From assembly GCA_018304425.1 (NCBI GenBank), contig JAGVWE010000002.1:248001-312000 (forward strand): DNA of 64,000 nucleotides, in the 5' to 3' direction. The first letter of the stretch is position 1; each line of letters begins with the position of its first letter. The notes under the pieces are model-generated. The model had not been told where the DNA came from and did not search any database. It worked only from the letters and a program-made list of their open reading frames with translations. The stretch comes from Candidatus Iainarchaeum sp. GTDB taxonomy: Archaea; Iainarchaeota; Iainarchaeia; Iainarchaeales; UBA10219. Positions 41,369-49,170 of this stretch are shown here, piece after piece. A program made the position numbers and the translations under genes.

Positions 41369-41528
41369 CCGCTGATCTTTCGCGTAGTTGCCCAGGTGCC
41401 TATTGAAGTAAAGGTCCGGATCCCGTGGCTTGCGGGGCGGGAAACGCTTGGGCAGCTTGGGCAGGTTAAACCTGGTGCGGGGGAACTTATTAATAGTTAC
41501 GGCGGATAGATGGGATAGGTAATCGGCT

Positions 41529-41625
41529 GTCCCATGCGAAGCATGGGACGTTTTCCCAGGGCTTCGTTGTCCACTTCGTGGACGACGCCACCAAAAGCGA
41601 AGCTTTTGATGGTTGTAAAAAGGCC
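41529..41625 (+). repeat. Three-hairpin element, copy A, upstream of tRNA-Val
   Basis: Three hairpins in a row: 41529-41549 (9-bp perfect stem, loop GAA), 41565-41587 (10-bp stem with one G-U, loop TTC) and 41588-41612 (11-bp stem with one mismatch, loop GAA), then TTGTAAAAAGGCC. The element ends 2 bp before the tRNA. Apart from hairpin 1 and one other base it is identical to copy B at 44485-44581. A TTATTAATAG box about 35 bp upstream would start transcription close to hairpin 1, making this a structured 5' leader. Confidence 0.85.
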
Positions 41626-41627
41626 TT

Positions 41628-41699
41628 GGGCCTGCAGTCTGATGGCGGGACGCGACGTTTACACCGTCGAGGTAGTCGGTTCGATTCCGGCCAGGCCCA
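41628..41699 (+). tRNA. tRNA-Val(UAC) with C8 and G14
   Basis: A 72-nt cloverleaf: acceptor GGGCCUG/CAGGCCC, discriminator A73, anticodon stem CGACG/CGUCG around loop UUUACAC (anticodon UAC), T arm GUCGG-UUCGAUU-CCGGC, and D stem GUCU/GGAC. All stems pair, but position 8 is C and position 14 is G instead of the near-universal U8 and A14, and position 21 is G instead of A. The D loop is short (GAUGGCG). No CCA is encoded. It directly follows a three-hairpin element. Confidence 0.82.
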
Positions 41700-41711
41700 T
41701 GGGATAGCAGC

Positions 41712-42578
41712 TCATTTTTTTTCGTTCACGGTTTTGGTTCGGGCCAAGGCATTGAAGTAGGCGTAGACCAGGACTGCTTCGAGTGCCGCGACGAGGATGC
41801 CGGTGCCGGTCTTGTAGAAGACGGTGGCAAGGAAGGGCGCCACGAAGGATAGGAAGGCGAGCAGCTTCCAGAGGCCGAGGAAGCGGCTGTCAAAGAAGTA
41901 CGCGCTCGCGTTGCCGTTGAGGGTCAACGCCGTCAACCCGGCGAGGATGACCACGACGATGAAGGTAATCCAGTTGTAGTCCTCCATGGCGTAGTTGTAG
42001 ACCACGTACTGGTCCGCGCTGAAGAAGGGAACGTCGAGGAAACCGTCATAGCTGTGGAAGACCGTGGCGGCCATGGCGTCTCCTTTCCGGGCTTCCAAGG
42101 CGTACTCGCCGCGGAGGGTGACGGGGAACAAGGCGAAGCCCGTGGCATCGGTTTTGAGGGTCCGCGTTTCGTCGTTGGGTAGCCGGATTTTGACTTCGGC
42201 GTCCTGGAGGGGCGTGCCATCGGCTGCCACGACGCGGGGGTCGGCGGTGTCGCCCAGGAACTGGACGGGCCGGATTTCGACGAGGATCAGCGAAGCGACC
42301 GGGCCCTCCACCAACTCGTGGAAGGAGTCGAGGAACGAGCGCGGCCGGCAGCCGGCCAGGCCGTCAAAGACCTTTCCGGGCGGGCAGATGGGGTGGCGCA
42401 GGGTCAAGTCGCATTCGAAGCCGGGTTTCATGGTGGACTTGATTTGCTGACAGAACTCGGCGGCAGTCAAGGCGTTGACGTCCAGCAAGGGCGGGCTGGA
42501 AGTGGACTGGGCCCACGCGGGAAAGGCAAGCCCCAACAAGGCAACGACGAGCAAGAGGGTGCGAAGCGTTGGTTGCAT
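41712..42578 (-). CDS. Secreted/membrane protein with C-terminal membrane helices
   Basis: A 288-residue protein: signal peptide (MQPTLRTLLLVVALLGLAFPAWA), an outer domain with Cys in EFCQQI, FECDLT, PICPPG and AGCRPR, a beta-rich carboxypeptidase-regulatory-like segment (ADGTPLQDAEVKIRLPNDE ... ATGFALFPV) and three C-terminal membrane helices. Unknown family. It converges with tRNA-Val across a T-rich stretch. Confidence 0.6.
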   Translation of the reverse strand: MQPTLRTLLLVVALLGLAFPAWAQSTSSPPLLDVNALTAAEFCQQIKSTMKPGFECDLTLRHPICPPGKVFDGLAGCRPRSFLDSFHELVEGPVASLILVEIRPVQFLGDTADPRVVAADGTPLQDAEVKIRLPNDETRTLKTDATGFALFPVTLRGEYALEARKGDAMAATVFHSYDGFLDVPFFSADQYVVYNYAMEDYNWITFIVVVILAGLTALTLNGNASAYFFDSRFLGLWKLLAFLSFVAPFLATVFYKTGTGILVAALEAVLVYAYFNALARTKTVNEKK

Positions 42579-42653
42579 GGCAAAACCATTGGAAAGGCTT
42601 TACCCTAATTAAAGCGGTTATCCATAAAAACACTTGGTTGGGCATTGCATGGT

Positions 42654-44453
42654 ATGCGCGTCCAAGCCCTGGCCCTGTGCCTGGTAGTCCTGCTTTTTTT
42701 GCTGGGCCCGGCGGCCGCCCTTACATTCCGGCCTGCGACCGTGCAGTCCATGGACTTGACGGTTAACTTGAAGGCCGAGGGCGCGTTCTCGGGAACCGTG
42801 TACGAAGGCGACCGCCTGGAAATAAAGTTTTTGACGCTGAACAACTCGAACACCCAGCAAATCCAGGAAATGGACGAGAAACTGATTATCGGGGGAAGGG
42901 AGTTCAGGCCCACCTACAAGCTGGAGGGCAGCAACAAGTACGCGGTTTACACCCTGGACGAACTCATGGACTATGCCGCTACTCCCAAGTTCACGATTGT
43001 CTCGAAGGCGCGGGTGAAGACCCTGGCCCGCATGGATTCCCTGGTGGACTATGACCTGGGCAAGCCCATGAAGGGCCTGGTCGAGGAATTCCTCCGGCCC
43101 TCGGCTTACATCGAAGCCGATGACCCTGAACTGGTGTCAAAGGCCCGGCTCGAGTTTTCCTCCACTTCCTCCGAGCTCGAGACCATCCGGCAAATCACGG
43201 AATGGGTCAACAAGAACGTTACGTACGACTTTGAAAACTATTACAATGGGGTCTGGGGGGCCAAGGACACGTATGCCTCGAGGCGGGGGGTGTGCGACGA
43301 GTTCTCGAACCTGGCTGCCGCCTTCCTGCGGGCAAAGGGAATTCCAACGATGTATGTTTCGGGAGTGAGCTTTGACGGGGAACGCTTTGGAAACCATGGC
43401 TGGCTGGAAGTCTACTTGGGCGGCAAGGGCTGGATTGGGGTTGACCCCACCTATGGGGAAGCCGGTTACCTGGATGCCGCGCACCTGGTCCTGGGCAAGG
43501 GCTTGGACGCGAACCTGTTGTCGAATTTTTCGGCCACCACGCTGAGCCGGAAATCCATCCAAGTCAAGGCCGTCTTGCACGACCCGGTCATCGAAATCAA
43601 CGACATCCAGTTCTTCGAGGACATCGTGGACGTGCAGGTGGAAAAGCCGGAGAAACTGGGCTTGAACCAGGAATTCGAGGTCAGGGTGCGCTTGAAAAGC
43701 CGGCAGGACAGCACCACCATCATCCCCGTGGAACTGGTGTTGCACGAGGAGTTCAAGCAAGAGGACCGGGGACGGCTGGTGATGCTGAAACCCTTCGAAG
43801 AAAAGTGGTTGACGTGGAAAGCGGTTTCCCCCGTGGAAGGCCTGGAAGGACAGTATGCACGGTATGGCATGGTGTTTTTGGCGCCCGACCAGAACGTCGA
43901 GGACACTCTGGTCGTCTACCCCACGCGGAGCCTCGAAAAAGGCGGACCCCAGATAGAGGCAATCGACGTCAGCCCCTTCATCTCCGAGGAAGGCGTGAAA
44001 CTCGAGTTGGTGCTGGAAAACAGGGGCCTCGGCGTGGGAGACGTGGAAATTACCTTCAAGTACTATGGCGTGGAACAAAAAGCCCGGGACACGCTTGAAC
44101 CCGGCGACCAAAAGCGTTTCGCGTTTGAAGCCAACTTTGCGAAGCCCGGCACGATGTCCCTGGAAATCAACGATGGACTGGCCGTGAAAGCCATTGAAAT
44201 CGAGGTGCCCCAGCAGGCAGTGGAAGCAGCCAGGGACGGGGAAAGGGTCCGCATCGAGGAACGAAAAACCCGGGAAAGCCCGTTGCCCACGCCCCCCGAA
44301 AGCGAGGCGGAACGGGCCTGGAAAGCCCTTGAACGGGAAGCCGGCGCCTTGGTTGAAGCGGTGTTGGCCAATGAAGGAACGCTTTACGCCTTGGTTGGCG
44401 GACTGGCCCTGCTGCTCATCCTCTTGGTTTTAAAGTCTTTGGTAAGGAGATGA
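42654..44453 (+). CDS. Membrane-anchored transglutaminase-like protein
   Basis: About 599 residues. A signal peptide (ALALCLVVLLFLLGPAAA) leads to an outer region with a transglutaminase-like cysteine protease fold: catalytic Cys in RRGVCDEFSNLAAAFL, His in FGNHGWLEVYLG and Asp in WIGVDPTYGEAG. CARDB-like strands follow, and one C-terminal membrane helix (LVGGLALLLILLVLKSLV) anchors it facing outward. Archaeal relatives probably process or crosslink surface proteins. I prefer the ATG giving MRVQALAL; a TTG three codons earlier is open. Confidence 0.85.
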   Translation: MRVQALALCLVVLLFLLGPAAALTFRPATVQSMDLTVNLKAEGAFSGTVYEGDRLEIKFLTLNNSNTQQIQEMDEKLIIGGREFRPTYKLEGSNKYAVYTLDELMDYAATPKFTIVSKARVKTLARMDSLVDYDLGKPMKGLVEEFLRPSAYIEADDPELVSKARLEFSSTSSELETIRQITEWVNKNVTYDFENYYNGVWGAKDTYASRRGVCDEFSNLAAAFLRAKGIPTMYVSGVSFDGERFGNHGWLEVYLGGKGWIGVDPTYGEAGYLDAAHLVLGKGLDANLLSNFSATTLSRKSIQVKAVLHDPVIEINDIQFFEDIVDVQVEKPEKLGLNQEFEVRVRLKSRQDSTTIIPVELVLHEEFKQEDRGRLVMLKPFEEKWLTWKAVSPVEGLEGQYARYGMVFLAPDQNVEDTLVVYPTRSLEKGGPQIEAIDVSPFISEEGVKLELVLENRGLGVGDVEITFKYYGVEQKARDTLEPGDQKRFAFEANFAKPGTMSLEINDGLAVKAIEIEVPQQAVEAARDGERVRIEERKTRESPLPTPPESEAERAWKALEREAGALVEAVLANEGTLYALVGGLALLLILLVLKSLVRR

Positions 44454-44484
44454 ATTAAGCGTGCGAGGCCGAGAGGCCGAGCCA

Positions 44485-44581
44485 GTCCCCTGCCGCGCAG
44501 GGGACGTTTTCCCCGGGCTTCGTTGTCCACTTCGTGGACGACGCCACCAAAAGCGAAGCTTTTGATGGTTGTAAAAAGGCC
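44485..44581 (+). repeat. Three-hairpin element, copy B, upstream of tRNA-Gly(GCC)
   Basis: Three hairpins: 44485-44505 (9-bp perfect stem, loop CGC), 44521-44543 (loop TTC) and 44544-44568 (loop GAA), then TTGTAAAAAGGCC, ending exactly at the first base before the tRNA. Against copy A, 91 of 97 bases agree. Hairpin 1 differs by an A-T to C-G pair swap plus three loop bases, so its pairing is kept. The nearest box A candidates are AATTAA (44453) and TTTTAAAG (44428). Confidence 0.85.
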
Positions 44582-44653
44582 GCGACCGTAGTCTAGTGGT
44601 TAGGATTCGACCTTGCCAAGGTCGAGACTCGGGTTCGACCCCCGACGGTCGCA
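44582..44653 (+). tRNA. tRNA-Gly(GCC)
   Basis: A 72-nt cloverleaf: acceptor GCGACCG/CGGUCGC, A73, U8 and A14 present, D arm with GUCU/GGAU, anticodon stem CGACC/GGUCG around UUGCCAA (anticodon GCC), T arm UCGGG-UUCGACC-CCCGA. No intron and no encoded CCA. The 5' end abuts the three-hairpin element directly. Confidence 0.94.
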
Positions 44654-48868: not shown

Positions 48869-49037
48869 GCAACCGTGGCGTATTGGTAGCGTTCGAGCCT
48901 TCCACAACCTTTTTACAAAAGGTTGGCGAAAAAGGCCTATACTTCGTATAGGCCATCCTTTTTGCTGACACAAAAAGGGGCCTTCTGGATTGGGTTGAAG
49001 CGAGCTCGAGGGCCGGGTTCGATTCCCGGCGGTTGCA
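48869..49037 (+). tRNA. tRNA-Gly(UCC), with a 98-nt intron
   Basis: Exons are 48869-48904 and 49003-49037. Acceptor GCAACCG/CGGUUGC, A73; D stem GCGU; anticodon stem CGAGC/GCUCG; loop CUUCCAA gives anticodon UCC; T arm CCGGG-UUCGAUU-CCCGG. The intron sits at the canonical position between bases 37 and 38. A full bulge-helix-bulge forms: CUUC pairs with GAAG (4 bp), 3-base bulges CAC and CGA, and AACC pairs with GGUU outside. A GTATTTAAGG box lies about 35 bp upstream. No CCA is encoded. Confidence 0.92.
48905..49002 (+). other. tRNA intron containing hairpin elements
   Basis: The intron holds two perfect hairpins: AACCTTTT/AAAAGGTT with loop TAC (48906-48924) and GGCCTATAC/GTATAGGCC with loop TTC (48934-48954), the latter flanked by AAAAA and TTTTT. 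The AACC of hairpin 1 is the same segment needed for the bulge-helix-bulge, so the two structures compete. Confidence 0.8.
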
Positions 49038-49040
49038 TTC

Positions 49041-49143
49041 AGCCTTTTTACAAAAGGCTGGCAAAAAGGTGTCCTGCTGTGCAGGACACTGCCGGTCGAA
49101 GGTGCCGGCTGCCCACCATACGTCGTCCCGTCTTCGACGGGAC
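49041..49143 (+). repeat. Hairpin cluster after tRNA-Gly(UCC)
   Basis: Four hairpins: AGCCTTTT/AAAAGGCT with loop TAC (49041-49059), GTGTCCTGC/GCAGGACAC with loop TGT (49069-49089), GCCGG/CCGGC (49091-49109), and GTCCCGTC/GACGGGAC with loop TTC (49125-49143). The first hairpin and the following TGGC-AAAAAGG linker repeat the intron's first hairpin and linker, with a T-A to C-G pair change that preserves the stem. The start of the downstream gene's box A (ATAAATA) touches the last hairpin. Confidence 0.75.
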
Positions 49144-49170
49144 ATAAATATTCAATGCGGGGAACCGGAT

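Follow-up and report, generated by a model that had tools for sequence, protein, structure and literature searches.

Introduction

Several classes of mobile or repetitive DNA resemble the element analyzed here, a palindromic unit of about 50 bp located at tRNA genes in a 64,000-nt stretch of the genome of Candidatus Iainarchaeum sp. (G000:C1:248001-312000; the whole stretch is hereafter called the window). Miniature inverted-repeat transposable elements (MITEs) and PATE-like elements of prokaryotes are, like this unit, short, non-coding, palindromic, present in multiple copies and presumably mobilized in trans; the unit differs from them in lacking terminal inverted repeats and a short target duplication of fixed length, in its precise preference for the ends and loops of tRNA genes, and in target copies of about 12–22 nt from the tRNA. 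Repetitive extragenic palindromic (REP) elements with their REP-associated tyrosine transposases (RAYT, Y1 type) also form imperfect intergenic hairpins in tandem and paired forms; however, our unit lies at tRNAs, the GTAG-type tetranucleotide was not seen, and the Y1 transposase is missing in several element-rich genomes. Archaeal tyrosine-recombinase elements of the SSV, pNOB8, and pTN3 types occupy the same sublocations of the tRNA and leave an intact tRNA together with a fragment, whereas the unit measures only tens to hundreds of bp, has no integrase, and recurs as the same sequence at many tRNAs. Casposons are known for insertion at the 3′ ends of tRNAs, where about 14 nt of the target are duplicated, but Cas1 was not found in the host or in most of its relatives, and the unit has no coding content. 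Because a defining feature of each failed, the elements were not filed as REP/RAYT, casposon, or integrase elements.

The origin of introns and split forms in archaeal tRNA genes is a long-standing question, and earlier evidence comes mostly from single loci. A model in which a mobile element at a tRNA brings about intron gain was put forward from a single Caldiarchaeum locus, a tRNA-Thr gene (PMC3293823). The introns described below share with archaeal bulge-helix-bulge (BHB) introns, and with that model, the canonical position, the BHB motif, and a gain tied to a mobile element at the tRNA; while the Caldiarchaeum case concerns a 1.8-kb insert coding for a recombinase, here the repeat unit itself lies within several introns and at tRNA edges. 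Our search of the open-licence literature, in which prior work may have been missed, gave no account of a family of palindromes directed at tRNAs in DPANN archaea. The two long copies of the window, A and B, probably belong to a family of short, non-autonomous, MITE-like palindromic mobile DNA elements that are moved in trans and insert at the edges and loops of tRNA genes.

Results

Copies A and B had been noticed in a preliminary description as two near-identical 97-bp three-hairpin elements with a compensatory base change. Both were present as described, and their coordinates (Table 1) and identity (91 of 97 bases, without gaps) were reproduced. Of the six differences between them, two make up a compensated pair in the first hairpin (HP1; A-T to C-G), three are triloop positions, and one is in the linker; both copies fold much more strongly than shuffled sequences (z = -5.8 and -5.1). 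Two bases separate the end of copy A from tRNA-Val(TAC), and copy B adjoins tRNA-Gly(GCC) directly. They are long forms of a simpler unit of about 50 bp that consists of HP1 (9 bp with a triloop, GTSCCATRC-NNN-GYATGGSAC), a T-rich linker ([GCT]TTT[TC][CG]C), and a second hairpin, HP2 (9 bp with the triloop GTA, NNNSCTTTT-GTA-AAAAGSNNN); in the long forms two extra hairpins are placed within HP2. An additional module, HP0 (GCGA-GGCC-GAAA-GGCC-GAGC), is often found 5′ of HP1 in other copies. Across 15 short copies pairing was kept in 98.9% of cells, 11 of the 18 pairs had changed on both sides, and the covariation score was 0.451 compared to 0.133 after shuffling and <0.1 for slid structures. 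As far as covariation can tell, the palindromes are maintained, be it by selection on the RNA, by selection on the DNA, or by template-switch correction. No Rfam match was obtained at the elements at gathering score, and within the window only tRNA matched; a known RNA family was therefore ruled out as their identity.

The host genome (1.48 Mb in 7 contigs) was searched with a covariance model of the unit (R1, E <1e-3), and the stretches around tRNAs and around matches were read directly. Of the 32 places found, 24 lay within 300 nt of a tRNA gene (2.2% expected) and 16 within 10 nt (0.5% expected; p = 3e-29). With this number of short, non-coding, and nearly identical copies placed at unrelated sites, the unit shows the pattern expected of MITEs. 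A model-free scan for the 15-mer CCTTTTGTAAAAAGG gave 14 exact sites, 12 of them at tRNAs. The unit adjoins the 5′ end of eight tRNAs (Val-TAC, Gly-GCC, Val-GAC, Val-CAC, His, Ser-GCT, Ala-CGC, and Pro-TGG) and lies in opposite orientation just past the 3′ end of about six (Arg-CCT, Arg-CCG, Lys-CTT, Gly-CCC, Gly-TCC, and, as a variant, Gln-CTG). Three units are located within tRNA introns, and one lies close to the 23S rRNA gene, beyond the 23S rRNA. In every case read, HP2 faced the RNA gene. With some 30 more copies in the host, strong covariation, and tight association with tRNAs, the earlier idea that these are REP/MITE-like palindromes directed at the 5′ ends of tRNAs largely held; 5′ ends are indeed a target, but not the only one, as the unit also occurs inverted at 3′ ends, in introns, and at duplicated tRNA fragments.

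On sequence comparison, the strongest evidence that the elements arrived by insertion is provided by G019 and G029, two genomes of one genus, and by two tRNA-Leu genes of the host. In G019 nine and in G029 eight tRNA genes have their own last 16 nt repeated 46–273 nt downstream, past at least one hairpin, whereas the shuffled control gave none against these 17. The repeated 3′ fragment usually begins in the T-loop, just behind HP2, and three G029 tRNAs present the mirror image, a 5′ fragment ending around the D-loop; the fragment lies on the far side of the element and one intact tRNA remains. An element is present at tRNA-Asn and tRNA-Arg(GCG) in G019, whereas the corresponding G029 sites are empty, and orthologous genes flank these loci on either side; for tRNA-Gln(CTG) it is G029 that has the filled site and G019 the empty one, synteny being shown upstream only. 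The host tRNA-Leu(CAG) and tRNA-Leu(TAG) have the same arrangement with fragments of 20 and 12 nt, respectively. At L206, L216, and L222 of G029, tandem or nested insertions were observed, consisting of an element, a tRNA 3′ fragment, and another element.

Two tRNA genes, tRNA-Gly(TCC) in the window and tRNA-Asp(GTC) (L049), are interrupted by the unit and were overlooked by default tRNA searches. With introns allowed, ARAGORN predicted introns of 98 nt in Gly(TCC) and 83 nt in Asp(GTC) at the canonical site, as well as a 95-nt intron containing a unit in tRNA-Ser(GGA). All three genes have a complete BHB at the exon borders in the canonical position, which in Gly(TCC) reads CGAGC-CTTC-CAC-AACC..GGTT-GAAG-CGA-GCTCG; in Gly and Asp the inverted HP2 supplies, with its first arm, the intron arm AACC of this motif. 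The exons of two tRNA-Pro(TGG) genes are identical (73/73), one gene being intronless and the other carrying a 50-nt intron that resembles a degenerate HP2 plus linker, with two units at its 5′ end. Since the Gly(TCC), Asp, Ser(GGA), and Pro(TGG) genes of the same-order relatives G019 and G029 are of intronless length, these introns were likely gained in the host lineage, although loss elsewhere is possible. An element-bearing Asp intron also occurs in another family (L068), and further interrupted tRNAs with units inside were found at L053, L125, and L147. Apart from these, four tandem hairpin units (TTTTTCGCAAACCTTTTTGGAAAAGGTTTC) lie in G012 (L070 from 1501), apparently within one interrupted tRNA gene, and G013, whose genome is a single contig, has many tRNA matches of 90–164 nt, so introns are probably common there.

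Promoter positions were taken from a TATA consensus scan of the tRNA upstream regions. While the TATA-like box lies at a median of -42 in element-free tRNAs, the best box of element carriers was found upstream of the element, at -140 for Val-TAC, -155 for Gly-GCC, and -107 for Val-GAC. The unit therefore appears to separate promoter and tRNA, and from the position of the box a structured leader about 100 nt long is likely on pre-tRNA-Val and pre-tRNA-Gly.

For the wider distribution and for candidate enzymes, 35 genomes of the same order (Diapherotrites-like DPANN archaea) were compared, the host being included as the sole representative of its family. Matches at E ≤0.01 were obtained in 22 of the 35, host included; the best loci of 20 other genomes were mostly at or in tRNA genes, one being beside a 16S rRNA gene. 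Several of these relatives' sequences also occur in records named Candidatus Diapherotrites, and the exact core was matched in Woesearchaeota, Pacearchaeota, Micrarchaeota, and Altiarchaeota. The host-specific pattern had no match in viral contigs, which ruled out a viral vector. The loose core TTTTCGC-CCTTTT..AAAAGG was found there in three stretches only, at least one of them on a contig assigned to a tailed phage by a tape-measure-like protein, and is hence not diagnostic alone. In clostridial records of Oscillospiraceae (L084-L161) an abundant repeat, AAAG-TTTTCGCC-hairpin-CGGGG, has the same exact core, and in Neglectibacter timonensis four such cores stand in a row about 80–160 nt apart (L088 4582-4931). 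Homology to this motif was not accepted, as it lies away from tRNAs and its flanks differ; the likeness of the core may reflect convergence or a distant relation.

Y1 transposases were detected in 12 of the 35 genomes, with one Y1_Tnp in the host and none in G013, G025, G029, G010, and G011. Cas1 was found in four genomes and reverse transcriptase in two, neither in the host. Being missing from several element-rich genomes, these three enzymes were ruled out as resident movers. Tyrosine recombinases are present in 33 of the 35 genomes, and because a XerA-like enzyme exists in nearly all of them its presence does not discriminate. No autonomous partner with the same ends was found in this survey of four enzyme families. 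Such small units cannot supply a copy of each tRNA target, which a classical integrase element needs.

Two further conserved sequences were observed. A second tRNA hairpin family (ATATTTATGTCCC..hairpin..GGGACGACGTATGCGGTGYCARCTGACG..CGTCAGYT) ends directly at tRNA-Leu and tRNA-Ser genes and is inverted 3′ of others; it occurs at 49093-49155 of the window and, in the host, in the upstream flanks C3:228920, C4:149961, C4:166044, and C3:91824 and the downstream flank C4:155168. The conserved stretch TATTGGGAGTTAAGGAGGnnAGTnAnACTGC...CCCTGGCTTnCCTCT resembles an unannotated small RNA gene (host C4:152190-152290; L128, L062), and in L062 and L128 a hairpin unit occupies the middle of this putative gene.

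Table 1. Elements, tRNA genes, and putative promoter boxes in the window.
Feature	Position	Strand	Remarks
Copy A, long form	41529..41625	+	HP2 end towards tRNA-Val; HP1 41529-41549; linker GTTTTCCC 41550-41557; middle hairpin 41566-41586; third hairpin 41588-41612; end TTGTAAAAAGGCC 41613-41625
Copy B, long form	44485..44581	+	Adjoins tRNA-Gly(GCC); HP1 44485-44505; linker 44506-44513; middle hairpin 44522-44542; third hairpin 44544-44568; end 44569-44581
HP0, optional 5′ module	44463..44482	+	GCGA-GGCC-GAGA-GGCC-GAGC; GNRA-type loop
tRNA-Val(TAC)	41628..41699	+	Start called at 41627/41628
tRNA-Gly(GCC)	44582..44653	+	
Putative TATA-like box TATTAATA	41488..41495	+	41 nt 5′ of copy A; from consensus scan
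Putative TATA-like box GTTTTAAA	44427..44434	+	5′ of HP0 and copy B; from consensus scan
tRNA-Gly(TCC)	48869..49037	+	98-nt intron (about 48905-49002); ARAGORN with introns; BHB
Short-form unit in tRNA-Gly(TCC) intron	48905..48954	-	Inverted; HP2 at 5′ splice site; E 7.7e-15
Short-form unit past tRNA-Gly(TCC)	49040..49089	-	2 nt past 3′ end; inverted; HP2 towards tRNA; E 8.3e-15

Discussion

If copies A and B are mobile elements of the proposed kind, a recombinase or transposase acting in trans would read the palindromic arms of tRNA genes. The unit, which consists of two triloop hairpins and a T-rich linker and is at times enlarged by extra hairpins, joins the tRNA gene with its HP2 at the 5′ end, at the 3′ end in opposite orientation, or just after the anticodon, in introns. 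In relatives the far side of the element holds a duplicate of either the tRNA 3′ part, beginning in the T-loop, or the 5′ part, extending to the D-loop, so that one tRNA stays intact. Such insertions would be tolerated, since RNase P, RNase Z, and EndA take off the leader, trailer, and intron, respectively. A and B would part the promoter from the tRNA and extend the leader to about 100 nt, while elements near the anticodon would provide an arm of the BHB motif and become introns.

Several observations weigh against this assignment. No target duplication was seen at A and B, and no empty site was shown for either, the genomes compared belonging to other families of the same order. Eight of the 32 host copies lie away from tRNAs. 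Dispersed copies form the majority in G013 and G025, where only 3 of 24 and 5 of 35, respectively, are within 100 nt of a tRNA (0.8 and 0.7% expected). The genus with the clearest filled and empty sites has elements with weak matches to the model (E 1e-6 to 1e-2). Template-switch correction of quasi-palindromes could produce the covariation in the absence of selection, and no mover was identified, the Y1 transposase, Cas1, and reverse transcriptase being absent from several element-rich genomes.

Among the alternatives, the elements could be remnants of larger plasmids or viruses integrated at tRNAs, in which a tyrosine integrase crossed over in tRNA loops and the cargo was later lost, leaving hairpins near the att site. 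The site classes of the unit (5′ half, anticodon loop, T-loop, and 3′ end) are those of archaeal tyrosine recombinases (PMC8371274), enzymes encoded nearly throughout the genomes compared, and an intact tRNA with a displaced 3′ fragment is the classical outcome of integration (PMC9897764); the displaced fragments have one boundary in a loop, starting at the T-loop or finishing in the D-loop, as for tyrosine-integrase elements. Nevertheless, we consider this origin unlikely: one hairpin unit is found at many different tRNAs per genome, although an integrase element must carry its own tRNA target copy, the units measure tens to about 150 bp without a gene or integrase remnants seen beside them, and the introns and perfectly adjoining 5′ copies are left unexplained.

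A functional RNA, that is, structured leaders, trailers, and introns which guide processing or regulate tRNA genes and are kept by selection on RNA structure, would account for the strong covariation, the strong folding, and a promoter position that places the element in the transcript. We regard it as improbable, since the element is inverted at 3′ ends and in introns, where the RNA would be its complement, many tRNAs have no element, and filled and empty sites differ within one genus. The 5′ and 3′ orientations yield RNAs complementary to each other, which makes a shared RNA function unlikely and leaves an event at the DNA level as the simpler reading. The processed small RNA, RNase P element, or transcription control element considered in the preliminary description likewise found no support and is hard to reconcile with the mirrored orientation at 3′ ends. 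A selected role as bidirectional terminators or insulators around genes for stable RNAs, with the T-run of HP2 ending tRNA transcripts, is suggested by the run of five T a few nt past tRNAs with an inverted unit and by the copy beyond the 23S rRNA; we give it very little weight, for the same T-run lies within introns and, in leaders, on the transcribed strand, and the duplicated tRNA fragments would not be explained. That A and B, 2.96 kb apart and 94% identical, are a simple local duplication of one leader between two tRNAs can be dismissed, as the genome search revealed about 30 other copies, which are spread over several contigs and include two at later positions of the window.

Beyond their assignment to a MITE-like family, it is possible, and here we are more tentative, that the elements form an undescribed class of DPANN mobile palindromes which recognizes the symmetry of the tRNA cloverleaf, inserts at the 5′ and 3′ ends and in the D-, anticodon-, and T-loops, and, where it enters the anticodon loop, gives rise directly to BHB introns that can be spliced. 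One repeat family at the 5′ ends, 3′ ends, and introns of tRNAs in one genome, together with the filled and empty sites and the duplicated tRNA fragments of relatives, offers many natural replicates of intron and leader gain. It also offers a defined DNA substrate for finding the enzyme, and a concrete, testable route for the birth of archaeal tRNA leaders and introns. If such a class exists, archaeal tRNA introns, and tRNA fragments as well, would have a general source in mobile palindromes.

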